From Alcanivorax sp. 1008 (GTDB taxonomy: Bacteria > Pseudomonadota > Gammaproteobacteria > Pseudomonadales > Alcanivoracaceae): DNA of 64,000 nt. The notes under the pieces were generated by a model. It worked only from the letters and a program-made list of their open reading frames with translations, made no database searches and was not told the origin of the DNA. The position numbers were made by a program, and so were the translations under genes. This document shows, in pieces, positions 13,330-64,000 of this stretch. Each line of letters begins with the position of its first letter. Position 1 is the first letter of the stretch. The DNA is taken from assembly GCF_020667895.1 (NCBI RefSeq), contig NZ_JAFMPS010000007.1, positions 1-64,000 of the forward strand, read 5' to 3'.

Positions 13330-16326
13330 ATGAGCAAGCTGCGTTTTGATGGTCGTGTCGCGATCGTGACCGGGGCCGGTGGTGGCCTGGGTCGTTCCCA
13401 TGCTCTGCTGCTTGGCAGTCTGGGCGCCAAAGTGGTAGTCAATGACCTTGGCGGTACCGCTACCGGTGGTGGCAAATCCTCGGCAGCAGCAGATAAGGTG
13501 GTGGAAGAAATCAAGGCGCTCGGCGGTGAAGCCGTGGCTAACTATGACTCCGTCGAGCATGGTGAGAGCATTGTCAAGAGCGCACTTGATGCCTTCGGTA
13601 CCGTAGATATCGTTATTAACAACGCCGGTATTCTGCGAGACGTTAGCTTTGCCAAGATGACCCAGGCTGACTGGGACCTGATTTTGAAAGTGCATCTGAC
13701 CGGGTCCATGAGCGTCAGTCATGCTGCCTGGCCGATCATGCGCGAGAAGGGCTATGGTCGAATCATTATGACCACTTCCGCGGCAGGCATTTATGGAAAT
13801 TTTGGCCAAGCCAACTACTGTGCTGCCAAACTGGGTATTGCTGGACTTGCCAATTGTCTTGCCGAAGAAGGTCGCGGCAAGAATATCTTTGTTAACACCA
13901 TTGCCCCCATTGCTGCCTCACGTCTGACCGAAACAGTGATGCCGCCGGAGCTGCTCAAGCACCTGAACCCGGATGCGGTCAGCCCACTGGTGGCATGGTT
14001 GAGCCATGAAAGCTGTCAGGAAACCAAAGGCGTTTTTGAAGTTGGCGCGGGCTATATCGCCAAGCTGCGCTGGGAGCGGGCGCAGGGCAATGTGTTTGCG
14101 CTGGGTAAAAAATTCAGCATTGACGATGTTGCTTCTCGCTGGTCAAAGATAACGGACTTCACTGATGCCGAGCACCCGACCAGTATCAACGAATCCTTTA
14201 TGCCGATTCTCAACAACATCAATAACCCGAGCCTGGGTGGTAATGAGTTTATTGATCTGGACGTGGCCAGCAAGGCGAAGCTGGAACTGGAATCTGAGTA
14301 CGATGAGAATGATCTGGCGCTGTATGCGTTGAGTGTCGGTGCCGCGCGCGATCCTATGGACAAGGATGAGCTTAAGTTTGTCTATGAGTTAGGTGGCGAT
14401 TTTCAGGCGCTGCCGACCTTTGGTGTGATGCCCCAGATCGGCGCTATGCTGAAGGCTGCGAAAGAAGGAAAGTTCGCCCTGCCGGGCATGAACTTCGGCT
14501 TTGACCGATTGTTGCACGGCGAGCAGCTCACCGAGATTCGCCGGCCGCTGCCGCGCAATGCAAAGCTGAAGCATATCTTCCGTTTCAAGGAAGCATTTGA
14601 TAAAGATCCGAATGCGGTGGTCACCTTTGCCATTTCCACTGTTGATGAAAACGGCGATGAGATTGCCTATAACGAGATGACTTCCTTTGTGAAAGGCGCT
14701 GGTGGCTGGGGTGGCGATCGCGGCCCGAGTGCGGATATCAATGTGCCGCCGGAGCGTGCCCCGGATGCGGTGATCGAAGAAAAGACCGACGCCAATCAGA
14801 CCCTGTTGTATCGCCTGTGTGGGGACTGGAATCCGCTGCATGCAGATCCGGCTTTTGCCAAGGCATTCGGCTATGACCGGCCGATCCTGCATGGCCTGTG
14901 CACCTACGGCTATGCCGGCCGCCACGTAATCAAGGCATTCTGCAATAACGATGGCCGGCTGATGAAGAGCATCAAGGTGCGCTTTGCTAAAAGCGTGTTC
15001 CCCGGCGAAACCCTGGTGACGAAGATGTGGAAGGAGTCTGACGACCGCATCATTCTGGAAACCCGGGTGAAGGAACGCGACGAAGTGGTGCTGAAGAACG
15101 CAGCAGTGGAGCTGTATCGCGAAGTGCCGAAGGTTGAGGTCAAGCCGAAGGCCGCAGCACCGGCAGAAACTTCTGCCACCGCCGATACCTCGGTCACCCT
15201 GGAAGATGTGTTCTCGGCGATTGCCAGCTATGTGGCAGCAACGCCGGCACTGGTGGACAAGGCCAAGACCTCGTTCCAGTTCAACTTCAGCAATCCGGAT
15301 AAGAGTTTCTTTATTGATCTGAAATCTGCTCCTGGCAGCGCCGGCGCTGGTAGCGTTGACAAGGCGGATGTGACCCTGGAGCTGGACACCAGGCATGTGC
15401 AGACCCTGTTTGGCGGTGATCTCGCAGCGGTGCAGAAGTTGTACTTTGGTGGCGAGCTGAAGATCGGCGGTAATGTGATGGCCTCGAACAAGCTGTCCGT
15501 GCTGCAGGGCATGGATCCGAAGCTGGTGGAAGAAGCCCGGGCCAAACGTGTTGCCGCAGGCGGTTCCAGCTCAGCATCTTCGGCATCGGCGCCGGCTGCT
15601 TCGCAGGAGCCGACGCTTGATGATGTGTTCAACGGCATATCGGCCTATATCGCCGCCAAACCGGAACTGGTCGGGAAAACCAGTACCGTGTTCCAGTTCG
15701 TTTTCCATAACCCGGAGCAAAGTTTCTTTATCGACCTGAAAAATGGCAATGGTTCTGCCGGCAGTGGCATGGCTGACAAGCCCGATGTGACGCTGGAACT
15801 GGATAGCGCTCTGGTCAAAGTGTTGTTTGGCGGTGATGTGGCGGAAGTGCAGAAGCTCTACTTCAGCGGCCAGCTGAAAGTGCACGGCAATATCATGGCC
15901 TCAAACAAGCTGTCGGTATTGCAGGGCATGGATCCGAAACTGGTCGACCAGGCCCGTGACAAACGTCTTGCCTCCGGTGCAACGAAAGCAGCGGCGCCGG
16001 CAGCCAAAGCGGCGCCGAAACAGGCACGTGCGGCAGAGTCCATGGCGGCACTGGAGCAGAAGCTGGCCAAAGCCACGGGGCTTTCTGGCGCGGTTCACTT
16101 CCGGGTGCGTGATCCGGACGGGGACTGGGTGATGGATTTCAGTGTCACGCCGCCGAAGCTGTCAACCGGCAAGGCGGACAGTGCCGCTGCCACGGTCACT
16201 GTTGGCGACAGCCAGCTGGCTGACTGGGTCGATGGCAAGCATGGTTTGCGCGAGCTGTATCAGAAGGGTGATGTGCGTGTCGATGGTAACGTCACGCTGG
16301 TTCGCCAGATTGAAGATGCACTGTGA
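13330..16326 (+). CDS. Peroxisome-type multifunctional enzyme (MFE-2-like) with three SCP2-type domains
   Basis: 998 residues from ATG 13330 (AGGGAG upstream). Residues 1-300: short-chain dehydrogenase with TGAGGGLG at 14-21, NNAG at 97-100 and catalytic Ser150, Tyr163, Lys167; expected activity (3R)-hydroxyacyl-CoA dehydrogenase. About 310-600: two-part hot-dog/MaoC region, with GDWNPLHAD at 498-506 and the His-Gly at 521-522, the hydratase-2 signature of 2-enoyl-CoA hydratase 2. About 620-740 and 760-880: two closely similar SCP2 sterol-carrier domains, each ending ASNKLSVLQGMDPKLV. About 900-998: a third, divergent SCP2-like domain. Ala/Pro/Lys-rich linkers separate them. Eukaryotic peroxisomal MFE-2 (HSD17B4) has the same order with one SCP2 domain. 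Probably acts on bulky or branched acyl-CoAs. Confidence 0.9.
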   Translation: MSKLRFDGRVAIVTGAGGGLGRSHALLLGSLGAKVVVNDLGGTATGGGKSSAAADKVVEEIKALGGEAVANYDSVEHGESIVKSALDAFGTVDIVINNAGILRDVSFAKMTQADWDLILKVHLTGSMSVSHAAWPIMREKGYGRIIMTTSAAGIYGNFGQANYCAAKLGIAGLANCLAEEGRGKNIFVNTIAPIAASRLTETVMPPELLKHLNPDAVSPLVAWLSHESCQETKGVFEVGAGYIAKLRWERAQGNVFALGKKFSIDDVASRWSKITDFTDAEHPTSINESFMPILNNINNPSLGGNEFIDLDVASKAKLELESEYDENDLALYALSVGAARDPMDKDELKFVYELGGDFQALPTFGVMPQIGAMLKAAKEGKFALPGMNFGFDRLLHGEQLTEIRRPLPRNAKLKHIFRFKEAFDKDPNAVVTFAISTVDENGDEIAYNEMTSFVKGAGGWGGDRGPSADINVPPERAPDAVIEEKTDANQTLLYRLCGDWNPLHADPAFAKAFGYDRPILHGLCTYGYAGRHVIKAFCNNDGRLMKSIKVRFAKSVFPGETLVTKMWKESDDRIILETRVKERDEVVLKNAAVELYREVPKVEVKPKAAAPAETSATADTSVTLEDVFSAIASYVAATPALVDKAKTSFQFNFSNPDKSFFIDLKSAPGSAGAGSVDKADVTLELDTRHVQTLFGGDLAAVQKLYFGGELKIGGNVMASNKLSVLQGMDPKLVEEARAKRVAAGGSSSASSASAPAASQEPTLDDVFNGISAYIAAKPELVGKTSTVFQFVFHNPEQSFFIDLKNGNGSAGSGMADKPDVTLELDSALVKVLFGGDVAEVQKLYFSGQLKVHGNIMASNKLSVLQGMDPKLVDQARDKRLASGATKAAAPAAKAAPKQARAAESMAALEQKLAKATGLSGAVHFRVRDPDGDWVMDFSVTPPKLSTGKADSAAATVTVGDSQLADWVDGKHGLRELYQKGDVRVDGNVTLVRQIEDAL
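15193..15969 (+). repeat. Duplicated SCP2 domain within the multifunctional enzyme
   Basis: Two units of about 350 bases, roughly 15193-15552 and 15605-15969, code for clearly related domains. The identity extends to the nucleotide level near the end of each (the segment around GGCATGGATCCGAA), which points to a tandem duplication rather than two acquisitions. Confidence 0.75.
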
Positions 16327-16356
16327 AGTGCTGACACAGACAACAGGAGAACGAAG

Positions 16357-17538
16357 ATGAAACGTCGAGTGAATGTAATCGGTGTCGGCATGACCAAGTT
16401 CGCCAAACCTGGCGCCAGTGATGATTACCATGTTATGGCAGCGGAGGCGGGAAAGAAGGCATTGGCGGATGCCGGGATAGATTATAACGAGGTCGAGCAG
16501 GCATTCTGTGGTTATGTCTATGGCGATTCCACCTGTGGTCAGCGTGCAGTATATGAGCTGGGGCTGACCGGCATTCCGGTGGTTAATGTTAATAATAATT
16601 GCTCTACGGGATCGTCAGCGTTATTTCTTGCCCGTCAGGCTATTGAGGGCGGCTTGGCCGAATGCGTTATCGCAGTCGGCTTTGAAAAAATGGAACGGGG
16701 CGCCCTTGGCTCCAAGTTCAATGATCGCGAAAACCCTATGGGCCAGCATGCCCAGCTGATGATCACTGAGCAGGGCTTCACCCAGGCACCACCGGCAGCA
16801 CAGATGTTTGGTGGCGCCGGTCGTGAGTATCGCTGGCAGCATGGCACCAAGCGGGAAACCTTTGGGAAAATTGCGGAGAAGGCGCGCAAACATGCCGCCA
16901 ATAATCCCTATGCACTGTTCAATCAGGTTTTGTCCTTGGAAGAGATCATGGCATCCGAGGAGGTGTTTGATCCGTTGACCCGGTTCCAGTGTTGCCCACC
17001 GACCTGCGGTGCTGGTGCTGCGATTCTCTGTTCGGATGAATTCGCGAAAAAGCACGGTATCAACAATCCGGTGTATATCGCAGCGCAGGCCATGACCACC
17101 GACTTCGCCAGCAGCTTCGAGGAGAAGTCGCTGATCAAGATGGTCGGCTATGATATGACCAAGGCGGCAGCGAAAAAGGTTTACGAGGAGGCCGGTATCG
17201 GCGCCGAGGACGTTGATGTGGTTGAGCTGCATGACTGCTTTACCGCCAATGAACTGCTCACCTATGAAGGTCTTGGCCTGTGTCCTGAGGGTGGCGCCGA
17301 GAAGTTTATTTGGGATGCTGACAACACCTACGGTGGCAAGGTGGTGACCAACCCGTCTGGCGGCCTGTTGTCGAAAGGCCATCCGCTTGGCGCCACTGGG
17401 CTAGCCCAGTGCACCGAGCTGGTCTGGCAGTTGCGCGGTCAGGCGGACAAGCGTCAGGTGGAGAATGCGCGGATTGCGCTGCAGCATAACCTTGGTCTGG
17501 GTGGTGCCTGCGTGGTCACCCTTTATCGTCGCGACTGA
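16357..17538 (+). CDS. SCPx-type thiolase / lipid-transfer protein
   Basis: 393 residues. Thiolytic cleavage of 3-oxoacyl-CoA to acetyl- or propionyl-CoA and a shortened acyl-CoA. The nucleophile is Cys82 in [24 protein letters not shown] near 290 and GHPLGATG near 340 are the other thiolase marks, in the form typical of sterol carrier protein X and the steroid side-chain thiolases, not of FadA (which has a second Cys in CVGAG; here it is [10 protein letters not shown]). It starts 30 bases after the multifunctional enzyme, with AGGAGA before the ATG, so the hydratase/dehydrogenase product passes to an enzyme made from the same transcript. No SCP2 domain of its own. Confidence 0.9.
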
Positions 17539-17585
17539 TTCGGTACGATGATGTCACACTTATAACAACAGGGGTCGGGGGGAAT

Positions 17586-18407
17586 ATGAAGGCGTTCAAC
17601 GGCAAGACGGCGGTGGTCACCGGTGCAGCCTCTGGTATGGGCCGGGCGCTAACCCAAAAGTTACTGTCATTCGGTGCCCATGTGGTCGCCACTGATGTGA
17701 ATGATGACGGCCTCAAGGCCTTGGTTTCTGGCCACTCTGGTAATGGCAAGCTGACCACACAGCAACTGGATGTCACCAATCAGGTAGCCTTTACTGCGCT
17801 GATTCACGATGTTGCAGCAAAGGGTTCGCTGGACTACCTGTTCAACAATGCCGGCATCGCCATCACGGGCGAGTTGAAAGACAACGTGCAATCTGATTGG
17901 CAGCGTACCATCGATATTAACCAGATGGGTGTGCTGTATGGCACGTTGGCTGCCTATGAGGTAATGCGAGCGCAGGGCTTTGGTCATATCGTGAATACGG
18001 CCTCAATCGCCGGTCTGATGCCGGCCCCGATGTTGGCGCTTTACGCCATGACCAAACATGCGGTGGTGGGCCTTAGCCTGTCACTGCGTGAGGAAGCCAA
18101 GGTATATGGTGTACGTGTTAGTGCGGTTTGCCCCGGTATCGTCGAAACCAATATTGTTGGTGTTGAGCAGATGCAGAAGCTGAAACTGGGCAACGACAGC
18201 CCGTTCGATTTTATTCGCAAAAGAACGCCAGTCAGACCTATCTCTCCGGATCAGGCGGCGCAGGCCATACTTGCCGGTGTTGTAAAGAATCTTCCTGAAA
18301 TTATCTTTCCGTTACACGGTAAGTTGTCTGTATCCACATTCCATAATGCCCGGCGAGTTTGGGAGCTGGCGGTGGCCCCCGGCCTTAAAATTATGCGTGG
18401 TAAATAA
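17586..18407 (+). CDS. Short-chain dehydrogenase/reductase
   Basis: 273 residues of the classical SDR fold. Cofactor motif TGAASGMG at 12-19, NNAG at 87-90, catalytic Ser140, Tyr153 and Lys157 (YAMTK). Asp37 after the second strand (VATDVND) suggests NAD(H). The C-terminal tail (after about 235) resembles that of SDRs acting on lipids or steroids. It is 47 bases downstream of the thiolase with GGGGTCGGGGGG before the start, so likely in the same operon, and seven bases before the hydrolase gene. Substrate unknown; a hydroxylated lipid or hydrolase product is inferred from context. Confidence 0.85.
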   Translation: MKAFNGKTAVVTGAASGMGRALTQKLLSFGAHVVATDVNDDGLKALVSGHSGNGKLTTQQLDVTNQVAFTALIHDVAAKGSLDYLFNNAGIAITGELKDNVQSDWQRTIDINQMGVLYGTLAAYEVMRAQGFGHIVNTASIAGLMPAPMLALYAMTKHAVVGLSLSLREEAKVYGVRVSAVCPGIVETNIVGVEQMQKLKLGNDSPFDFIRKRTPVRPISPDQAAQAILAGVVKNLPEIIFPLHGKLSVSTFHNARRVWELAVAPGLKIMRGK

Positions 18408-55617: not shown

Positions 55618-56559
55618 TCAAGAGGGGAACAGGTTCAGTGCATAGTCGCCAGTCCAGACTTCCACGGGCAGGGCACCAAAGTCCATCGATTTGACGATAA
55701 GCAGAATACGCCGCTCCAACTCATCATCACCCACTTCAGACGACTTGATTACCACGTTACTCACTTCACCGGATGGGGCAATCGTCATAGTCAGCACCAC
55801 AGTCCCACGCAATGCAGGGTTTTGCCGCAGAGCACGTTGGTAGGCGCTATTGATGCGGCCCTGACTACGGTTAAAGGTCTGACGGATTTGTTCTTCCGTA
55901 CGGACACTTTTGCCCTCCGCATTTTTGCGTACGGTGGTAGCAGCTTCAGTGGCAATCTTACTCTCAACCTGGGCAACCTCTGCGCCTTCCAGAGTGCCGC
56001 CGCCACCGCCACCGCTGGATACGCTGGCCACGGCAATACCGCCCGAGCCGCTGCCGGCACGACTGGTAATCAGATTGCGCTCGACCTTGGCAGACTCGGC
56101 ACCACCAGTGCGCAGTGGTTGGCGATTGACGACCGGCGCCAGATCCTGCAGACCAGCGAGCGAATCTTCGAACACTTTCAGTTCTTTCTTCGCTACTTCA
56201 CGAGCTTTTTCTACTCGTTCAGGAGTCGGCTCTTCCTTCGGCTTTTCCGGCTCTGGCTCAGGCTCTGGCTCTGGCTCAGGTTCTGGCTCGGGTTCTGGCT
56301 CCGGCTCAGGAGGCGGTGGCGGCGGCTCTTCCTTTTTCTTCTCCATCACCAGCTTGGCCAGCCGCTCCGGAATCTGTTCCGCTTCGCTGCGGTCCTTCTT
56401 CGGAATGGTGGTGCTCTCAATCAGGATGATGAAAAACAGGCACAGTAATGCCAGCACGGCCAAAATGATCCACTGACGACGGCGATCCCCGGGGAGGTTG
56501 TCCCAAGGAAGCAGACCATCGACAAATATCATCAGAGGCTTCTTGTTATTCTCGCTCAT
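55618..56559 (-). CDS. TonB-like energy transducer with AgmX/PglI-type C-terminal domain
   Basis: 313 residues. A short cytoplasmic head, one membrane span (WIILAVLALLCLFFIILIEST, about 29-49), then a rigid periplasmic spacer of PPPPPPEPEPEPEP type (about 75-105), a Gly-rich linker (SVSSGGGGGGTLEG) and a C-terminal beta-alpha-beta domain (RGTVVLTMTIAPSGEVSNVVIKS ... RRILLIVKSMDFGAL), as in the AgmX/PglI and TonB C-termini. Expected to carry force from the channel complex across the periplasm. Last gene of the operon; start overlaps the upstream exbD-like gene by four bases. Confidence 0.88.
   Translation of the reverse strand: MSENNKKPLMIFVDGLLPWDNLPGDRRRQWIILAVLALLCLFFIILIESTTIPKKDRSEAEQIPERLAKLVMEKKKEEPPPPPPEPEPEPEPEPEPEPEPEPEPEKPKEEPTPERVEKAREVAKKELKVFEDSLAGLQDLAPVVNRQPLRTGGAESAKVERNLITSRAGSGSGGIAVASVSSGGGGGGTLEGAEVAQVESKIATEAATTVRKNAEGKSVRTEEQIRQTFNRSQGRINSAYQRALRQNPALRGTVVLTMTIAPSGEVSNVVIKSSEVGDDELERRILLIVKSMDFGALPVEVWTGDYALNLFPS
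56248..56331 (-). repeat. Glu-Pro/Pro spacer repeat
   Basis: Short tandem units of six or twelve bases (GGCTCT/GGCTCA type on the plus strand) encode about eleven Glu-Pro pairs followed by six Pro. Such repeats change in copy number by slippage, which would alter spacer length in steps of two residues. Confidence 0.8.
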
Positions 56560-57065
56560 TCGACGCCCTCCTCAGCCTTTTGCAGCACGGCAAAGGAGAT
56601 TTTGGAATAGTCAGTCTGGTTGGCACTGACCATCACATTGCGAATGGTGGAATAGGGTACCTTGCGGTCCGCCAGAATCATGACCTCACGCTCAGGTATG
56701 CCATCTTCGTTCAGTACTGGAAGACTGCGATCCGCACGCCATTGCAGCTCTGCAACCAAGGCCGGTATCACCATGGCGCCATCTTCGTTCTCGGCGGCAG
56801 TCGGATCAACGGCCACGTCTTGAACCAGAATGTTGCGAGCACTGATCTGGATCTTCAGAACCTCGCCAGGCACCGTATTGGCGCTGGACTCAGGCAGAAC
56901 AATGTCCTTGTTATCCGGCGGCTGCTGGGAGTTCGATGAATTAACCAGCAGAAAGAACACCAGAATGGTGAAGATATCCATCAGTGAAGTCAGGTTCAGC
57001 ACTGCAACGCCCTTATGGCGTGCATGCCGTCGGGCCATACGCTTACCGCGGGATGACTTTTTCAT
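56556..57065 (-). CDS. ExbD/TolR-like protein with the conserved membrane Asp
   Basis: 169 residues. Basic N-terminus, one membrane span (LMDIFTILVFFLLVN), and a periplasmic domain of about 120 residues. Asp30, in SLMDIFTIL, corresponds to the proton-carrying Asp of ExbD and TolR. Paired with a second ExbD-like protein immediately upstream that lacks it. Overlaps both neighbours by four bases, so the stoichiometry may be set by coupled translation. Confidence 0.9.
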   Translation of the reverse strand: MKKSSRGKRMARRHARHKGVAVLNLTSLMDIFTILVFFLLVNSSNSQQPPDNKDIVLPESSANTVPGEVLKIQISARNILVQDVAVDPTAAENEDGAMVIPALVAELQWRADRSLPVLNEDGIPEREVMILADRKVPYSTIRNVMVSANQTDYSKISFAVLQKAEEGVE

Positions 57066-57583
57066 GCATCACCTCCACGACGAGCGTCCGGTGGCGCTGA
57101 GCCAATGCCGATTTCCGGGAACAGTTCTTTTTTGATGCCTATGCCATTATTGATCTCGATTCGGTAACGAACCGCATCCATGGTGTAGATCATCAGCTCA
57201 TAGTCGGTGTCATCCTCACACAGCAGGGTGATATTGGTGACTTCCGGGAACTGGGCTTTGATTTCCGCAAGATACCCGCGCAGCTTTTCACGGTCATGCT
57301 TGCCGTCTTCAGCTACGGGTACGATAGCGACAATTTTGCCGCTTTTCCTTTCGCCAATCTCGTAGCGGTCCTGATAAATCAGAACCTCCAGTACGGGCTT
57401 ATTATTCTCTTCCGGGTCCGAAGGAGGTGCTTCCTCGTTGGACGGCAAGTTCAGCTGCAGGATGGAAACCTGGGCGAATACCGCATTGAGTAGCAGGAAC
57501 GGAATCAGTACCACCATCAAATTGAGGAAGGCGGTAATGTTCAGTTCGACATCTTCGTGCCCTGTACGCTTTCTTGATCGCAT
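57062..57583 (-). CDS. ExbD/TolR-like protein lacking the conserved Asp
   Basis: 173 residues. Same topology as its neighbour: basic head, one span (LNLMVVLIPFLLLNAVFA), periplasmic domain with FPEVTNITLLCEDDTDYELMI. At the place of the proton-carrying Asp there is Asn21 (ITAFLNLMVVL), so this subunit alone should not conduct protons. A conserved-looking NAVFA turn ends the span. Start overlaps the downstream exbD by four bases. It is 36 bases after the channel gene. Confidence 0.88.
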   Translation of the reverse strand: MRSRKRTGHEDVELNITAFLNLMVVLIPFLLLNAVFAQVSILQLNLPSNEEAPPSDPEENNKPVLEVLIYQDRYEIGERKSGKIVAIVPVAEDGKHDREKLRGYLAEIKAQFPEVTNITLLCEDDTDYELMIYTMDAVRYRIEINNGIGIKKELFPEIGIGSAPPDARRGGDA

Positions 57584-57618
57584 ACCGGCTCCTTAACAGG
57601 TTAACGAAAGTTGACGGA

Positions 57619-58335
57619 TTATTGACCGTCGCCGTTACGTTGATCCTGTTGAGTCACCACCTGACGGAATACATTCAGGAACTTGATCGAAGCCATTTCC
57701 ATACTGTCGATCAGCTTGCCGGTCATAGAGTTGATGAACGAGTAAGCCAGCAGTAGCGGAATTGCAGCGATAAGACCAAATGCAGTGGTGTTCATGGCCA
57801 CCGAGATAGAGGCGGATAGCAGGTCGGCCTTTTGTGCCGGGTCAGCACTGGCTACCGCAGTAAATGCCTGAATCAGACCGATAATGGTACCGAGTAGGCC
57901 CATCAGGGTGGCGATGTTGGCGAGAGTAGCGATATAGGGGGTGCGAGTTTCCAGACGCGGCATAACTTCCATCAAGCCTTCTTCCATGGCCAGCTCCACG
58001 TCATCATGGCGACGGCTGATGCGGGCACGCTCGAGGCCGTACGCAACAATGCGACCAATGCCCACTTGGCTGTCTTTAACCACATCCATTGCCTGACGGA
58101 ACTGGCCTTTGGAGAGGAGCGGGAATACCTGGTCCCAGATTTTCTTGTTGCGCGCTTTGGTGGCTTGCAGGTACAGCACACGTTCGATGACGATGCCCAA
58201 GCCGATCGCCAGTACAATCAGGATTGGATACATGAAGAAGCCACCATCCTGAATAAAACTGATGGCTGTGGTCATCAGTCCGGTATCGGCAACGGCCGGA
58301 GCGGAGGCTGGATCAAGGGATACTGGCGTCGACAT
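57619..58335 (-). CDS. MotA/TolQ/ExbB-type proton channel protein
   Basis: 238 residues from ATG 58335, with GGAG nine bases upstream (a TTG five codons earlier is less likely). Three membrane spans: FFMYPILIVLAIGLGIVIERV (near 35), LANIATLMGLLGTIIGLIQAF (near 140) and AFGLIAAIPLLLAYSFI (near 190), the last two with the Thr residues that line the channel in ExbB and TolQ. A long cytoplasmic loop follows span 1. It should form a pentameric channel around an ExbD-type dimer, here probably mixed. Confidence 0.92.
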   Translation of the reverse strand: MSTPVSLDPASAPAVADTGLMTTAISFIQDGGFFMYPILIVLAIGLGIVIERVLYLQATKARNKKIWDQVFPLLSKGQFRQAMDVVKDSQVGIGRIVAYGLERARISRRHDDVELAMEEGLMEVMPRLETRTPYIATLANIATLMGLLGTIIGLIQAFTAVASADPAQKADLLSASISVAMNTTAFGLIAAIPLLLAYSFINSMTGKLIDSMEMASIKFLNVFRQVVTQQDQRNGDGQ

Positions 58336-58370
58336 CAGGGTGTTCTCCAAACAGGGTTGTTGTTGTCATT

Positions 58371-58391
58371 ACAGCATCCCCATGATGCTGT
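58371..58391. other. Hairpin within the operon, upstream of the channel gene
   Basis: ACAGCATC at 58371-58378 and GATGCTGT at 58384-58391, perfect, with loop CCCAT. On the minus strand it lies about 40 bases before the channel-gene start; no T-run follows. It may be an attenuator, a processing site or a partial terminator that lowers downstream expression. Confidence 0.4.
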
Positions 58392-58464
58392 TGGTGAAAA
58401 TGGCGATGGTCTTTTTATCAGAATTTATGCCGAGCTGCATCTGCTTGGCTGGGTATAACTCAAA

Positions 58465-58764
58465 TCAGTCAAGAAACAGATCGTCACCGCTGGCGGGTTC
58501 TTGGCCGAGAATGCGGTAATACTCGACTTCTCGCATCAAAACCTCTTGATCCAGAGGTTCCAGTACCCTGTTGAGCAATGAGGAAGTAGGGTCCTTCTTT
58601 TCCAGCTTCACTTCCTTGTCTTTCCATGGCACAACATTAAGAACAGTGGGTGCCTCCTGAGAGCCAATAATATTACTCGAAAGCCCCGGATCGGCGGTTT
58701 CCTGCTCTGCAATGGCGGGCAGGGAGAGGAGTACTGAGCAGCAGATTAGGGAGACATAGCGCAT
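58465..58764 (-). CDS. Small periplasmic protein of the channel operon (99 aa)
   Basis: 99 residues with a clear signal peptide (MRYVSLICCSVLLSLPAIA), then a mature protein of 80 residues: extended N-terminus, VVPWKDKEVKLEKKDPTSSLL and a helical acidic C-terminus. No Cys in the mature part. Begins one base before the stop of the TPR lipoprotein gene. Its place between TPR lipoproteins and the channel implies that it belongs to the machine. Family not recognised. Confidence 0.72.
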   Translation of the reverse strand: MRYVSLICCSVLLSLPAIAEQETADPGLSSNIIGSQEAPTVLNVVPWKDKEVKLEKKDPTSSLLNRVLEPLDQEVLMREVEYYRILGQEPASGDDLFLD

Positions 58765-58765
58765 A

Positions 58766-59560
58766 TCAGTTCAACTCCTGTTGGTCTGCGTCTTGCTGGC
58801 CGCCGTCGGCATCCGGAGATGCTATTTCTGCAGGTTCTGTGGGTGCAAGCTCTGCGGGTGCAGGAACAGCATCTGGTACTCGTCGTTCAAGATCTGCGAC
58901 CCAGTTGGCAACTGATTGATCCAATTGTCGCTGTAGAGACTGATACTGACGGAAGTGCTCTAGTGCCAGTGGCAAGTCCTGTAGGTAAAGCTCTGCCAGC
59001 ACGCCCATGTTGAAGTGGGCTCGGGCGTACTTCGGGTCCAGTTGAATAGCCGCCTCGTAGTGCTTGCGTGCCTCATCAAACTTGCCCTGCTCGCGCAGGG
59101 CCAATCCCAGAGCATTGTGGGCATAGGGGTTATTGCTGTTGACGCCAAGCGCCTGCCGTAATGCTTCCTCGGCCTCCGGATATTTCTTCTGCCGCTGGCG
59201 GATGATGCCCTGATTGACCAGCGGGCCGGACAGCTGTGGGTAACGGCTAGCCACGGACTGAAACATCACTAGTGCCTTGTCAGTTTCTCCGGCTCGCATG
59301 GCCTGCAGGGCTCGAGCGTACTCGGGCATGGCCTCAAGGGCGACAGCTTCCACGGCCGGGTCGTGCGGTACCGGCGGAATATGCTCGGCATCACTTTCTG
59401 CCGCGGCCTCTCCACTGCGCTGGTCAGCGTACTTTGAAGGCCCGCCGGCGCCCCCATCCAGACCCAGATCCGTATCGCCGGGAGGCTTCGAGGCGCAGCC
59501 AGCGAACAACAGGATGGCGGCGGCCAAGGCCAGCCGCCGGTTAATAGATGATGTCGACAT
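58766..59560 (-). CDS. TPR-containing lipoprotein
   Basis: 264 residues. Lipobox ILLFAGC with Cys22, then an acidic Gly-rich linker, and about four TPR units between residues 75 and 210 (LVMFQSVASRYPQ; PEAEEALRQALGVNSNNPYAHNALGLALREQGKFDEARKHYEAAIQLDPKYARAHFNMGVLAEL). The last 45 residues are Pro/Ala/Glu/Asp-rich. Likely outer-membrane-bound, facing the periplasm. The start overlaps the upstream 1002-residue gene by 20 bases. Probably a periplasmic scaffold for the channel and TonB-like protein. Confidence 0.85.
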   Translation of the reverse strand: MSTSSINRRLALAAAILLFAGCASKPPGDTDLGLDGGAGGPSKYADQRSGEAAAESDAEHIPPVPHDPAVEAVALEAMPEYARALQAMRAGETDKALVMFQSVASRYPQLSGPLVNQGIIRQRQKKYPEAEEALRQALGVNSNNPYAHNALGLALREQGKFDEARKHYEAAIQLDPKYARAHFNMGVLAELYLQDLPLALEHFRQYQSLQRQLDQSVANWVADLERRVPDAVPAPAELAPTEPAEIASPDADGGQQDADQQELN

Positions 59561-62549
59561 ATTCTTCTACCTGCTCAAACTTGGCAAAGCGGCCTGGCAA
59601 CAGCTTGGCCAGTTGGGCAAAACTCTGTTTGACCCAGTCATCATAAATATTCTGGCCAACCAGATCGGTGTTAGCGATCAGGATATCAATTGCCTGATCT
59701 TCATAAGGCAGCGCTTGCTCTTCAAGAAGCAATTCATACTGTTCCAGTTCCAGCTCTCCGAGGCCTGCCGGTCTTTCCGAGTCGATCATGTCTTTGGCAA
59801 GTACCTGATACATCTGACCGATCTTGAAGTTCGCGGCGGTTGCATACTCGGATACACCAATCGCAGCGATGGTTTCGTAGCGCTTCAAGGCATCACGCAT
59901 CACAGTGGTTTTGCGCTCCAGACTGCGACGCAGGGGCTGGGTCAGCTTGATTGAGTTGAATTCTTCAAAGCGCGGCTCCGCCAGAGTAAAAGCGGCCCAT
60001 GCTCCAAGCCATGCCACCCGGTCCGAGCCCTGGTCACCGGCCTGCTGATGGGTTTTGACCAACTCATTCAGACCGTTGTTGTATGCGGCAGTGTCTCCGG
60101 TCTGCTCGTACAATTTGACCAGGCGGTGCTGTCCTTCGGCGCGGAAGTCATAGGGCTGAGGGTAGGCTGCCAGATACTTTCTATACAGACGGATGGATGC
60201 TTCTGGTTCTTTTGCCCGGTCCTGCATCTCGGCTGCTTGCCACAATGCCTGCCGGGCCAGCTCACGATCTGTCTGTTCATAATTGCCGGCAATACGCTCC
60301 AGTTCGAGTGCTGCTGCTCCGAAGTTGCCGGTTTTCTCGTATGCCACTGCCAGTTTGTCCGGAATGGTTTCATTGAGCGGATCTTTAGGATATCGCTGCC
60401 GGAAGCTCTCCAGAATTGGGATAGCGCTGTCGAAGTTTTCGATCTGCAGATAAAGAGTAGCTGCATCAAATTCTGCATTTTTACGAATGCTGGCTTCCGG
60501 GAATACCGTCGCAACTCGCATAAACATATCTGCCGCTGCGGCAAATTGCTCTGCAGTCTGCAATTCTTCCGCTTGCTTGTATACCGAGGCTGCCAAGCGC
60601 TCTTGATAGGTCAGGCGGTCTTTAGCTTCCACAGATGGATACTGCAGTACATTGGTATAGGCGAATTCAGCGACTTTAAAGCGGCCTAAATCAAACTCGC
60701 CATTAGCGATAGTGCTCCAGCCGTAGACGAGCAGTTTTTCCGGCGGCGGCGGCTGTAGTGATACCAGCATGCCGGCGGTGCGGATGGCGGCCTCAACATC
60801 CTCGCGTGCCAGCTGGTCATCAATAACGTTGCTGAGAACCTGCGGTACCTGCTCATGCTCCGGGTAGGTGGCCGCAAATTTCATACTGCTGGTGATGCTG
60901 CGCTCGCGCCACTGGTCCTTGGCCTGCTGCTGCTCTTCCGTATCTGAGGGCAGAGCACGGATCTGAGCCTGATAGGCAACCAGAGCGAAAAAGGCGGCAT
61001 CAGCGCTTTTCTCATAACCTTCGTAGCCGTATGCGGTGCGCTCGAACTCGGCCACGGCCTCTGCAAAGCGCTGACCAGAGAACAGGGTCTGGGCATACAG
61101 ATCATTGATTGACGCCTGATCTGCCGATGCCGGCGGTGTGTCCAGGTATTCCTTGTACCAGGCGGCGGGGCGTGCAAAGTCTTCTGGTTTCTTGGACTTC
61201 TGGGCCAGCGCATGATGATGGCCGGCAAGATCAAGAATATGTCCCTTCAGTTGAGTGACATAGCCGTCTCTGGCCTCCGGGTACTGGGTCCAGTAGCTGC
61301 TGTGAATGCCATATTGGCTGATGAACTTTTCTTTGGCTGGCAGAACCAGAGTTGGGAAACCGCCGCGCTGGAAAGCTTCAATATTCAGGCTGGAAAACTC
61401 GGGAGCCTGCGGGCTGGTAGGATAAACCGAGACAAACATGTCATAGGTGTCAGCAGCGTCACGGAAGCGTTCTTGCTGCAGGTAGATATCACCGAGGGAT
61501 CGGTAGGTATCTGCCTCGTATGGCCGGTGACCTCGTTTGGCGAACCAGTCCCGTACTGACGTGGCGCCATCCAGATTAGTAAATGCAAGACTGATAACCC
61601 GCCGTACATCGGTAACCAGCTTGGCTTGCATAGACTTTTCATCTGCCAGTTCTGCAGAGCCTTCCAGATGGTCAACGATGGCAAAAAACTGCTCCAGAGA
61701 TTGCTCATACTCACTTAACTTGTAGTGACTCCAGCCTAGCTTGTATAGAGATTGTTCGTAGAAGTCAGATTGCTCGCCGGCCTTAACGACCTCCAGGTAG
61801 GATTTTACCGAGGCATCATAGTCGCCATCTGAAAATTGCAGTTCTGCCAGACGGAACTGCGCTTCCAGATAGAACGGGCTGTCCGGGTACTCCTTAACCA
61901 TGTCTTTAAGTGCTTGCTGAGAATTGTCCAGATCTCCTGCCAAATCATAGGCTTTAGCGAGAAGGTAATAGGCCTCGGCGCGCTCTGCCGGGTCCTGACT
62001 GGTTTCCAGAAGGGTACGGTAGAGCTGGATGGCAGTGTTGTAGTCCGTGTCCAGCATGGCACCATCAAGTCCGCTGTAAAGACTGCCAGCCAGATCAAGG
62101 GCAGCATAACGCTGGTCCCGAGTTTCAGCTTGTTGCGCTTCACGCATGAAGTTTTCATACAGAAGCTTATCTACATTCATATCAAGCTCTGCCCGGTCGA
62201 CAGCCGGGTTTGCATTCAGCTCCTGATCCTGAAAGCCAGCGTCTTCTTCTTCTGCAGCAGCGAGCGCCAGGTCTGCCATGCGGCGAATGGAGCGACTACG
62301 TTGCTCAGGATCCTGAAAAAGCTCAACAGCGCGCTGATAGCTTTGCAGGGCAGCCTGAGCTGATACGTTATCGAGGTCCTGAGCCTCAATGGTAATTTCG
62401 GTTTGCTCCAGATCTGCCAGAGTTGTGCCGGTATAGCGGGCCTGCTCCTGCAGCGCCAGATCGTCCGTGGTGGATTGACTGGCGCAGCCGGCCAGTGAAA
62501 GGGCGACGGCAGCAGTAATAGTGCGAATACGAAAGGTGCCTCTGCTCAT
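59541..62549 (-). CDS. Large TPR lipoprotein (1002 aa)
   Basis: 1002 residues from ATG 62549, which overlaps the upstream stop (TGATG). Lipobox ALSLAGC with Cys22. Almost the whole chain is helical repeats of TPR/Sel1-like type (for example SDGDYDASVKSYLEVVKAGEQ, AEFAYTNVLQYPSVEA, FAAAADMFMRVATVFPE, LQIENFDSAIPILESFRQRYPKD), perhaps 15-20 units, giving a long superhelix that could span much of the periplasm. No enzymatic motif. Members of this type in related machines act as scaffolds. Confidence 0.85.
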   Translation of the reverse strand: MSRGTFRIRTITAAVALSLAGCASQSTTDDLALQEQARYTGTTLADLEQTEITIEAQDLDNVSAQAALQSYQRAVELFQDPEQRSRSIRRMADLALAAAEEEDAGFQDQELNANPAVDRAELDMNVDKLLYENFMREAQQAETRDQRYAALDLAGSLYSGLDGAMLDTDYNTAIQLYRTLLETSQDPAERAEAYYLLAKAYDLAGDLDNSQQALKDMVKEYPDSPFYLEAQFRLAELQFSDGDYDASVKSYLEVVKAGEQSDFYEQSLYKLGWSHYKLSEYEQSLEQFFAIVDHLEGSAELADEKSMQAKLVTDVRRVISLAFTNLDGATSVRDWFAKRGHRPYEADTYRSLGDIYLQQERFRDAADTYDMFVSVYPTSPQAPEFSSLNIEAFQRGGFPTLVLPAKEKFISQYGIHSSYWTQYPEARDGYVTQLKGHILDLAGHHHALAQKSKKPEDFARPAAWYKEYLDTPPASADQASINDLYAQTLFSGQRFAEAVAEFERTAYGYEGYEKSADAAFFALVAYQAQIRALPSDTEEQQQAKDQWRERSITSSMKFAATYPEHEQVPQVLSNVIDDQLAREDVEAAIRTAGMLVSLQPPPPEKLLVYGWSTIANGEFDLGRFKVAEFAYTNVLQYPSVEAKDRLTYQERLAASVYKQAEELQTAEQFAAAADMFMRVATVFPEASIRKNAEFDAATLYLQIENFDSAIPILESFRQRYPKDPLNETIPDKLAVAYEKTGNFGAAALELERIAGNYEQTDRELARQALWQAAEMQDRAKEPEASIRLYRKYLAAYPQPYDFRAEGQHRLVKLYEQTGDTAAYNNGLNELVKTHQQAGDQGSDRVAWLGAWAAFTLAEPRFEEFNSIKLTQPLRRSLERKTTVMRDALKRYETIAAIGVSEYATAANFKIGQMYQVLAKDMIDSERPAGLGELELEQYELLLEEQALPYEDQAIDILIANTDLVGQNIYDDWVKQSFAQLAKLLPGRFAKFEQVEEYVDIIY

Positions 62550-64000
62550 CACTGCGCTTTCCCCTGCAGACGGTCACTGAAGGACGCGTCCTGAACTCGC
62601 GCCATGGCCAAGTGTGCCTCGGCAAGCTGCTCACCGAGCTGGACGCGATTTCGCGCCAGCACCTGCAAGGCGTCGTTCTTGAGTAGCTGGCCAAGTTTGC
62701 TCATCAGTTTCTCGGTTTCAGCGATCATCTTGTCAATATCCTGGCGTCGCGCGTTCAGTCTTTTGCCCAGATCGCTGCGAATATGAAGCGAGGCGTCTCT
62801 TACTAGCTGTTCAGCTGCCTCAATGCGCAGGCCTGAGATCTCTATATCCTCTCCCGCCTGTGTTACATCTCGCAGCTGCTGCTCTCTATTTTGCGGAGCT
62901 GCACTTGCGATACTGTATAGCAGAACGCCTTTTACTCTGCGTAGCCGTTCACGTTGTGGCGAAGTGGCAGGTAATCCATTGAGCTGGCTTTCCAGTGCAG
63001 CAATAAGCTCCCAGGCCATCAGCTGATCATAATCGGCAAGGTCCTGTGGCCGCTTCATGTCCAGACGTTGCGGCATGTTCACAGCAATGTCTGCAGCCAA
63101 GGCGCCGGCTTCCTGTTGCTGGCGTTTCAGGGCAAGCAGTTTGGCCCGGGCATCTGGCAATACTCTCTCAAGCTGGGCCTGCTGGTTGCGCCAGGCGCTT
63201 TCCATGGCCGGTACAGATTGCTGCCAGTCGAGTAGTAGTGTGCGAAGACGATCAAGCTCCATGTACTGGCGGAACTGCTCAGAAAAATCATGAGATGCGA
63301 ACAGTCGATACAGATAAGGCATCTCCGGGCCGGCATCAGCACTGTAATTGGCCGCGCTCGCCATCGGATCAAGATTCATATTGGCAGCTTTGTCGTGACT
63401 CTTAAGGCGGTCCAGCCAGCGTTGCTCGTCGACATTGCGTATGGCCAGCTCAACCTGCCGCAGTTCATCACGTAGAGTCTCAGTGGCAAAACGGTAGCCC
63501 GCCAATGCCTGAGGAATGGCGCCGAGCTCCTCGTAGGCCCGCGGAGCCAGCAGCAAAGCCTCTTGCACCGATTGATGGCTGGGGTTGCGGCGGACGAGCT
63601 CCAGCCAAAGAGGAAGGGCGCGGCGGTATTCCTTGCGTTCAAAATTGCTTAGCCCCAGAGCGAGCAGCGCTTCATTGGAAAACGGGCCATCGGCGCGCAC
63701 CCTGACTAATGCTGCACGTGCTTGATCAAAGCGTTTCTCTTTTAACTCAGTCAGACCGATGGCAAGTGCGGAGCGATCCTTCAGGGCGTTGATTTCTTCG
63801 TCGCCTGGCGGAAGGTTCAGTACACCGCTGAGCATTCGAACGCCATCATTGATGTGGTTGGCACGGATCATCGCCACGCCCATATTGTAGGTGGCGTATG
63901 CACCCTCCCGGGTTCCGGCGGGGATGGAGTGCAGGCTGGCCAGTGCTTCGCCGAATTCTTCTTGGCTGATACGTATATTTGCAAGCATCAAATGGCGACG
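62549..64000 (-). CDS. TPR-repeat protein, C-terminal part (5' end beyond the window)
   Basis: The frame is open to the window edge and continues upstream (RRHLMLANIRIS...), so only the last 483 residues are seen. The N-terminal part of the visible piece contains TPR units (FGEALASLHSIPAGTREGAYATYNMGVAMIRAN; FDQARAALVRVRADGPFSNEALLALGLSNFERKEYRRALPLWLELVRRNP). From about residue 190 it becomes a helical region rich in Gln, Arg and Leu (RQQQEAGALAADIAVNMPQ; ...), probably coiled coil. A signal or lipobox would lie outside. Same operon as the channel genes. Confidence 0.82.
   Translation of the reverse strand, partial: RRHLMLANIRISQEEFGEALASLHSIPAGTREGAYATYNMGVAMIRANHINDGVRMLSGVLNLPPGDEEINALKDRSALAIGLTELKEKRFDQARAALVRVRADGPFSNEALLALGLSNFERKEYRRALPLWLELVRRNPSHQSVQEALLLAPRAYEELGAIPQALAGYRFATETLRDELRQVELAIRNVDEQRWLDRLKSHDKAANMNLDPMASAANYSADAGPEMPYLYRLFASHDFSEQFRQYMELDRLRTLLLDWQQSVPAMESAWRNQQAQLERVLPDARAKLLALKRQQQEAGALAADIAVNMPQRLDMKRPQDLADYDQLMAWELIAALESQLNGLPATSPQRERLRRVKGVLLYSIASAAPQNREQQLRDVTQAGEDIEISGLRIEAAEQLVRDASLHIRSDLGKRLNARRQDIDKMIAETEKLMSKLGQLLKNDALQVLARNRVQLGEQLAEAHLAMARVQDASFSDRLQGKAQ

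Follow-up and report, generated by a model that had tools for sequence, protein, structure and literature searches.

Luciano et al. divided the gliding genes of Myxococcus xanthus in 2011 into Group A, found in myxobacteria and Bdellovibrio, and Group B, comprising aglR, aglQ, aglS, gltC, gltD, gltE and gltG (PMC3169522). In Gammaproteobacteria, Geobacter and Fibrobacter the Group B genes were shown to form a single cluster, which was named a core complex of unknown function. Beside the seven shared genes, one 'additional gene' without Myxococcales homologues was described, and gltF was assigned only to Myxococcales and Bdellovibrionales (PMC3169522). The gammaproteobacterial core was discussed again by Wartel et al. 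in 2013 (PMC3858216), and we found no work on it beyond these two papers in the open-access PubMed Central (PMC) literature, the scope of all our literature searches. Here we analyze an operon at the end of a 64,000-nucleotide stretch of Alcanivorax sp. 1008 (contig NZ_JAFMPS010000007.1, positions 1 to 64,000; hereafter the window). Sequence comparison identifies it as the gammaproteobacterial Agl–Glt Group B core complex already described in 2011. What we did not find described in that literature is an Asn in its AglQ-like subunit, at the position of the proton-carrying Asp.

In the window, the operon appears as eight minus-strand genes from 55618 to the window end, listed below in gene order with the two residues that concern the motor.

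62549..64000 in the window (to 64507 on the contig), minus strand: tetratricopeptide repeat (TPR) protein at the GltC position, 652 residues, with TPR repeats and a matching structural model
59541..62552, minus strand: GltD-like giant TPR lipoprotein, 1003 residues, lipobox LAGC with invariant Cys23 and Ala at +2
58766..59560, minus strand: GltE-like TPR lipoprotein, 264 residues, lipobox FAGC with invariant Cys22
58465..58764, minus strand: small exported protein, 99 residues, probable distant GltF homologue
57619..58350, minus strand: AglR-like proton-channel subunit of the MotA/TolQ/ExbB family, MotA_ExbB 97 bits
57062..57583, minus strand: AglQ-like ExbD-family subunit without the transmembrane (TM) Asp, ExbD 47 bits
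57521..57523, minus strand: codon 21 of the AglQ-like gene, encoding Asn where AglQ has the proton-carrying Asp D28 (Asp column of ExbD and TolR)
56556..57065, minus strand: AglS-like ExbD-family subunit with the TM Asp, ExbD 52.7 bits
56976..56978, minus strand: codon 30 of the AglS-like gene, conserved Asp
55618..56559, minus strand: GltG-like transducer, 313 residues, one TM segment, TonB-like C-terminal domain of the AgmX/PglI type

A first-pass annotation, made from the window sequence alone, had given these eight genes in this order; all are present on the minus strand, and their Pfam and NCBIfam domains agree with it. Its list was incomplete, as the window edge splits the operon. Extending the operon past 64000, a check it had proposed, completed the first TPR gene (62549-64507, 652 codons) and revealed the true first gene, which encodes a 187-residue exported protein (contig 64508-65071) and is followed on the contig by a pdxB-like gene in divergent orientation. 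The operon therefore has nine genes in total, denoted y-C-D-E-F-R-Q-S-G, in which y is the 187-residue gene, the letters after y are Glt/Agl names, and F stands for the 99-residue gene. Within the window, four of the seven junctions overlap (4, 20, 4 and 4 bases), which makes the earlier statement that most junctions overlap about right; the remaining gaps are 1, 114 and 35 bases. A promoter and terminator scan was uninformative.

The motor genes place the operon with the Agl proteins. In a tree of the channel protein that includes TolQ, ExbB and other myxobacterial relatives, the gammaproteobacterial and myxobacterial AglR-type proteins form one clade (support 100/98), and the gammaproteobacterial rows adjoin the second of two myxobacterial motor types (95/79). 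The channel is thus set apart from ExbB and TolQ, and is not the ordinary ExbB of siderophore uptake against which its identity had earlier been posed. For comparison, we collected myxobacterial genomes via an MglA query. In a Myxococcus genome the channel protein has its two best places at 113 and 108 bits, against at most 72.6 bits for other ExbB/TolQ relatives. The two ExbD-like profiles separately prefer AglQ (72 bits) and AglS (89 bits), in the order R-Q-S, at seven myxobacterial loci. The transducer consists of a short cytoplasmic end, one TM segment, a Pro/Glu-rich linker and a TonB-like C-terminal domain, to which the AgmX/PglI C-terminal model NF033768 assigns 62.4 bits (cut-off 40). 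The NCBIfam GltG model NF033760 gives 40 bits (1.7e-10; cut-off 650), and the transducer profile matches the myxobacterial G slot; the same profile has no relative in the PDB.

This motor belongs to the same superfamily as ExbBD–TonB and TolQRA, with which it shares the TonB-like transducer domain, but it differs from both in its separate channel branch, its two ExbD-type subunits, one of them without the Asp, and its giant TPR lipoproteins. One alternative is ordinary Ton nutrient uptake, in which ExbB, ExbD and TonB would energize a TonB-dependent receptor and the TPR proteins would serve as TtpC-like accessories. The ExbD-family proteins and the TonB-like domain of the transducer fit such a system; however, it is very improbable given that the channel groups with AglR rather than ExbB, that TonB_C stays below the Pfam cut-off on the transducer, and that no TonB-dependent receptor lies within the operon. 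Furthermore, the same genome has a separate ExbB–ExbD–TonB locus (L009), a Tol–Pal locus (L007) and an ExbB–ExbD pair by msbA/lpxK (L008).

On the load side, the GltD-like lipoprotein carries the clearest kinship. Its profile matches open reading frames (ORFs) of Myxococcus (1184 residues, 1.6e-54), Hyalangium (1169 residues, 7e-53) and Anaeromyxobacter (1296 residues, 1.3e-49), as well as the ORF beside an above-cut-off GltE at locus L201 (160 bits). The NCBIfam GltE model NF033758 scores 54.8 bits on the 264-residue protein, below its cut-off of 225, whereas the profile of this protein matches the myxobacterial E slot (77.5 and 87.5 bits). The relationship between the TPR proteins and Glt proteins put forward in the annotation was therefore borne out, for the GltD-like protein by profile (1e-54) and for the GltE-like protein by its occupying the same gene slot. 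Matches of the TPR proteins to PorW/SprE and MamA were attributed to generic TPR signal. Both TPR lipoproteins have an invariant lipobox Cys followed by Ala. By the usual +2 rule, Ala at this position is an outer-membrane signal, and an outer-membrane location is thus indicated for both.

The 652-residue protein is a candidate GltC by position and architecture; in its model long helices come after a TPR superhelix, its profile gives weak matches in myxobacteria (E 2e-4 to 8e-4), and a fold search with it returned generic TPR proteins only. Gene y is matched at the corresponding position in both Myxococcus (E 2e-8) and Hyalangium (4e-5). The model of its product combines a coiled coil with a beta-sandwich (pLDDT 75.7), and a fold search against the PDB gave nothing significant, the best hits being transthyretin/Ig-like sandwiches at E 6e-3. 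For the 99-residue protein, a direct profile search of the myxobacteria yielded no match at E 1. Profile–profile comparison with the ORFs at the GltF position gave a probability of 47% (P 2e-4), compared with 4.7% for the best of 200 column shuffles and at most 6.5% for unrelated profiles; judged from these profiles, the protein is a probable GltF homologue.

A motor driven by the proton-motive force (pmf), a transducer and a TPR protein are also combined in Tol–Pal, and the TPR stretches resemble YbgF/CpoB (83.8 bits; cut-off 90.1). We therefore considered a second Tol–Pal-like system acting in outer-membrane constriction or envelope integrity, with the TPR lipoproteins replacing CpoB and Pal. 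Such a system is quite unlikely: a complete Tol–Pal operon with CpoB exists elsewhere in the same genome, the operon encodes no Pal/OmpA domain, and the channel falls outside the TolQ rows of the tree.

In the Group B core complex, the same set, aglRQS with gltD, gltE, gltG and gltC (the last a candidate here), is likewise clustered in one region. In contrast to the 2011 description of this complex, all nine genes here have a positional myxobacterial counterpart, including y and, as probable GltF, the 99-residue gene. The earlier proposal of a relative of the Agl–Glt core was thus right in substance, though this core had already been published for Gammaproteobacteria (PMC3169522, PMC3858216). 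The closest myxobacterial cluster lies on the contig that carries mglA: it gives the best GltD profile scores (246-265 bits, against 50-170 bits) and has the same order, y-C-D-E-small-G. However, aglRQS is not inside this cluster, and its GltD, GltE and GltG are larger. The true gliding cluster, by comparison, is recognized at L201 by a GltE above the NCBIfam cut-off (747 bits), and the window GltD profile scores 160 bits there, against 262-265 bits for the mglA-contig cluster in Myxococcus and Hyalangium. The myxobacterial clusters fall into one group in the GltD tree. Since the mglA-contig cluster adjoins mglA in the Myxococcus relative, it is presumably the 'G4' of Luciano et al., with MXAN_1922 as its gltD homologue, an assignment made from position and not from a locus tag. 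With the M. xanthus Agl–Glt gliding machine, the operon has homologues of AglR, AglQ, AglS, GltD, GltE and GltG in common. It differs in that domain searches found no FHA domain of GltG in the transducer, that AglQ D28 is Asn, and that the Group A parts, except the probable GltF, are outside the operon; none of GltA, GltB, GltH, GltI, GltJ and GltK is encoded within it, the rest of the genome not having been searched for them.

Among 369 genomes drawn evenly from Gammaproteobacteria, 88 matched the GltD profile at E 1e-30, representing 67 of 272 genera. The exact order y-C-D-E-F-R-Q-S-G was found in 38 of the 60 loci fetched; most of the others lack the motor genes, have one gene undetected, show an apparent C–D fusion or run into a contig end. 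Such recurrence of one nine-gene order throughout the class puts the operon far beyond chance: it is real, complete and conserved, and belongs to a known but uncharacterized machine. Load genes y-C-D-E-F without a motor occur at five loci (L238, L242, L251, L257 and L266), and in the genomes with motorless load genes the motor is found in a second, complete operon (L300-L303) or else as a free R-Q-S-G cassette (L313, L315).

Two variations of the load side and the copy number were also seen. GltC and GltD are apparently fused in L229, L235, L244, L255, L258 and L269, where one ORF of about 1350-1520 residues occurs without a separate C gene. Some genomes of the same family have a second, diverged nine-gene copy (L164-L169; GltD identity 32-34%), in which the GltE-like protein is shorter and the transducer longer (about 465 residues, its N-terminal cytoplasmic part being long).

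The AglQ-like protein of the window reads ELNITAFLNLMVVL at the Asp position of ExbD, TolR and AglQ; AglQ D28 was equated with the Asn column by residue count in locus L171. This Asn is present in 76 of 77 gammaproteobacterial loci (18/18 in the family, 51/52 in the class and 7/7 further loci), whereas the AglS-like subunit has Asp in all 77, and AglQ has Asp in every Myxococcota locus read (8 plus 30 loci, with two places counted in both sets). Of the two proton-carrying residues on which the Myxococcus motor depends, one is absent here. In the tree of R, Q and S with myxobacteria outside, the lone Asp-bearing gammaproteobacterial locus (L256; G068:C12) is sister to all Asn loci (97/98). Given this position of L256, the Asp-to-Asn change probably arose a single time, close to the base of the clade, and was then fixed and kept. 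Our searches of open-access PMC found no mention of this Asn.

The consequence for the motor depends on how the two ExbD-type chains pair. A 2022 review of 5:2 motors predicted AglQ and AglS to be both Asp-bearing, and left it unsettled whether they form heterodimers or homodimers (PMC9389320). Since the Asn has been conserved although D28N is inactive in M. xanthus, we infer a working motor with Asn in Q and Asp in S. Its axle may be asymmetric, with two ExbD-type chains paired in an obligate heterodimer that has one proton-binding Asp, fixed once and kept since; this is a serious possibility, though we stop just short of expecting it. Alternatively, the AglQ-like subunit could be structural or regulatory only, the working motor being of AglR–AglS type with an S–S homodimer as axle. 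This fits both the restriction of the proton-carrying ability entirely to S and the unsettled pairing of AglQ and AglS (PMC9389320), yet it appears somewhat unlikely, as the TM motif of Q is otherwise strictly kept and residues of both Q and R changed on the same branch. These co-changes on the Asn branch are Thr17 and Pro28 in Q, and Thr188 (beside the conserved Thr of the NTTAFGL stretch) and Met219 in R; together with the kept motif, they suggest that Q is still seated in the channel.

These structural and evolutionary features enable us to propose a putative model, which we consider fairly probable as a whole: an Agl–Glt core-complex machine with a pmf motor, a TonB-like transducer, outer-membrane TPR lipoproteins and a one-site Q–S axle, exerting force on an outer-membrane or surface load and not serving gliding. 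The sequence data establish the gene content, the families, the conservation across the class and the residue change, and the tree agrees with a single origin of that change; localization, force path, heterodimer, single-site cycle and transport role are inferred. In the inner membrane, a pentamer of R with the Q–S axle would admit protons through the Asp of the S chain. The axle, probably an obligate heterodimer of AglQ–AglS type in this model, would work with a single proton site, carried by the AglS-like chain. The GltG-like transducer would span the periplasm, its TonB-like domain acting on the GltD- and GltE-type TPR lipoproteins, predicted from their signals to sit at the inner face of the outer membrane, and on the periplasmic C, F and y proteins. 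Together, the C, D, E, F and y proteins would act on the outer-membrane or surface load. The most likely use is a directed force on this load, as Agl–Nfs moves the spore-coat glycan of Myxococcus. For the M. xanthus proteins, two-hybrid tests show that AglR binds GltG as well as NfsG, and Nfs is driven around the spore by AglRQS (PMC3858216). The Agl–Nfs machine resembles the present one in combining a pmf motor with a Glt-type load, the two being separable as in some gammaproteobacterial genomes. It differs in that sporulation is not expected in gammaproteobacterial hosts, and no polysaccharide export genes lie beside the operon.

The alternatives weighed here address different layers, load or axle, and not all of them are mutually exclusive with this motor architecture. 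Gliding motility, suggested by the homology to AglRQS and GltD, GltE and GltG, is a most improbable use. Luciano et al. found that the core does not suffice for motility and that most carriers have no documented gliding (PMC3169522); M. xanthus copies other than G1, G2 and M1 have no effect on motility. Moreover, mglA had no match in the genome at E 10 with a query that matched 574 relatives in another collection, though with no positive control within the genome set. Of the loads considered in the first-pass annotation, motility is accordingly the least supported.

Several points weigh against the proposed machine. Replacing AglQ D28 by Asn abolishes proton conductance in M. xanthus and paralyzes both gliding and the Nfs machine (PMC3858216). 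The operon encodes no outer-membrane barrel or surface partner, and we found no experiment on any gammaproteobacterial copy in the literature searched. In addition, the GltC identity of the 652-residue protein, as judged from its sequence, is weak, and the GltE likeness could partly be generic TPR signal (52 bits for MamA against 54.8 bits).

Two other motor loci of the genome were observed. The ExbB–ExbD pair at L008 (G000:C49:45000-57000) is without TonB; its neighbors are a ComEC-like gene on one side and msbA-lpxK-kdsB on the other, suggesting that the pair may be connected with lipopolysaccharide assembly. The fifth MotA/ExbB match of the genome belongs to an anti-phage locus, Zorya type I (L010:2989-7098; G000:C33, about 13989-18098), with 671 bits for ZorA, 296 bits for ZorB and 565 bits for ZorC.

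In summary, the core complex is present in about one quarter of the sampled gammaproteobacterial genomes, with no function assigned to it in the open-access PMC literature. Its separate motor and load cassettes display outside myxobacteria the modularity of Agl, Glt and Nfs, and recall how Agl drives both Glt and Nfs. The natural Asp-to-Asn change makes the question of AglQ/AglS heterodimers or homodimers (PMC9389320) directly testable, and allows one to ask whether a 5:2 motor turns with a single proton site. If the asymmetric axle is true, chains of AglQ and AglS type would be indicated to pair as heterodimers, and the machine would be driven by pmf through a single proton site in each axle, with a step or torque unlike those of MotAB, ExbBD and TolQR.

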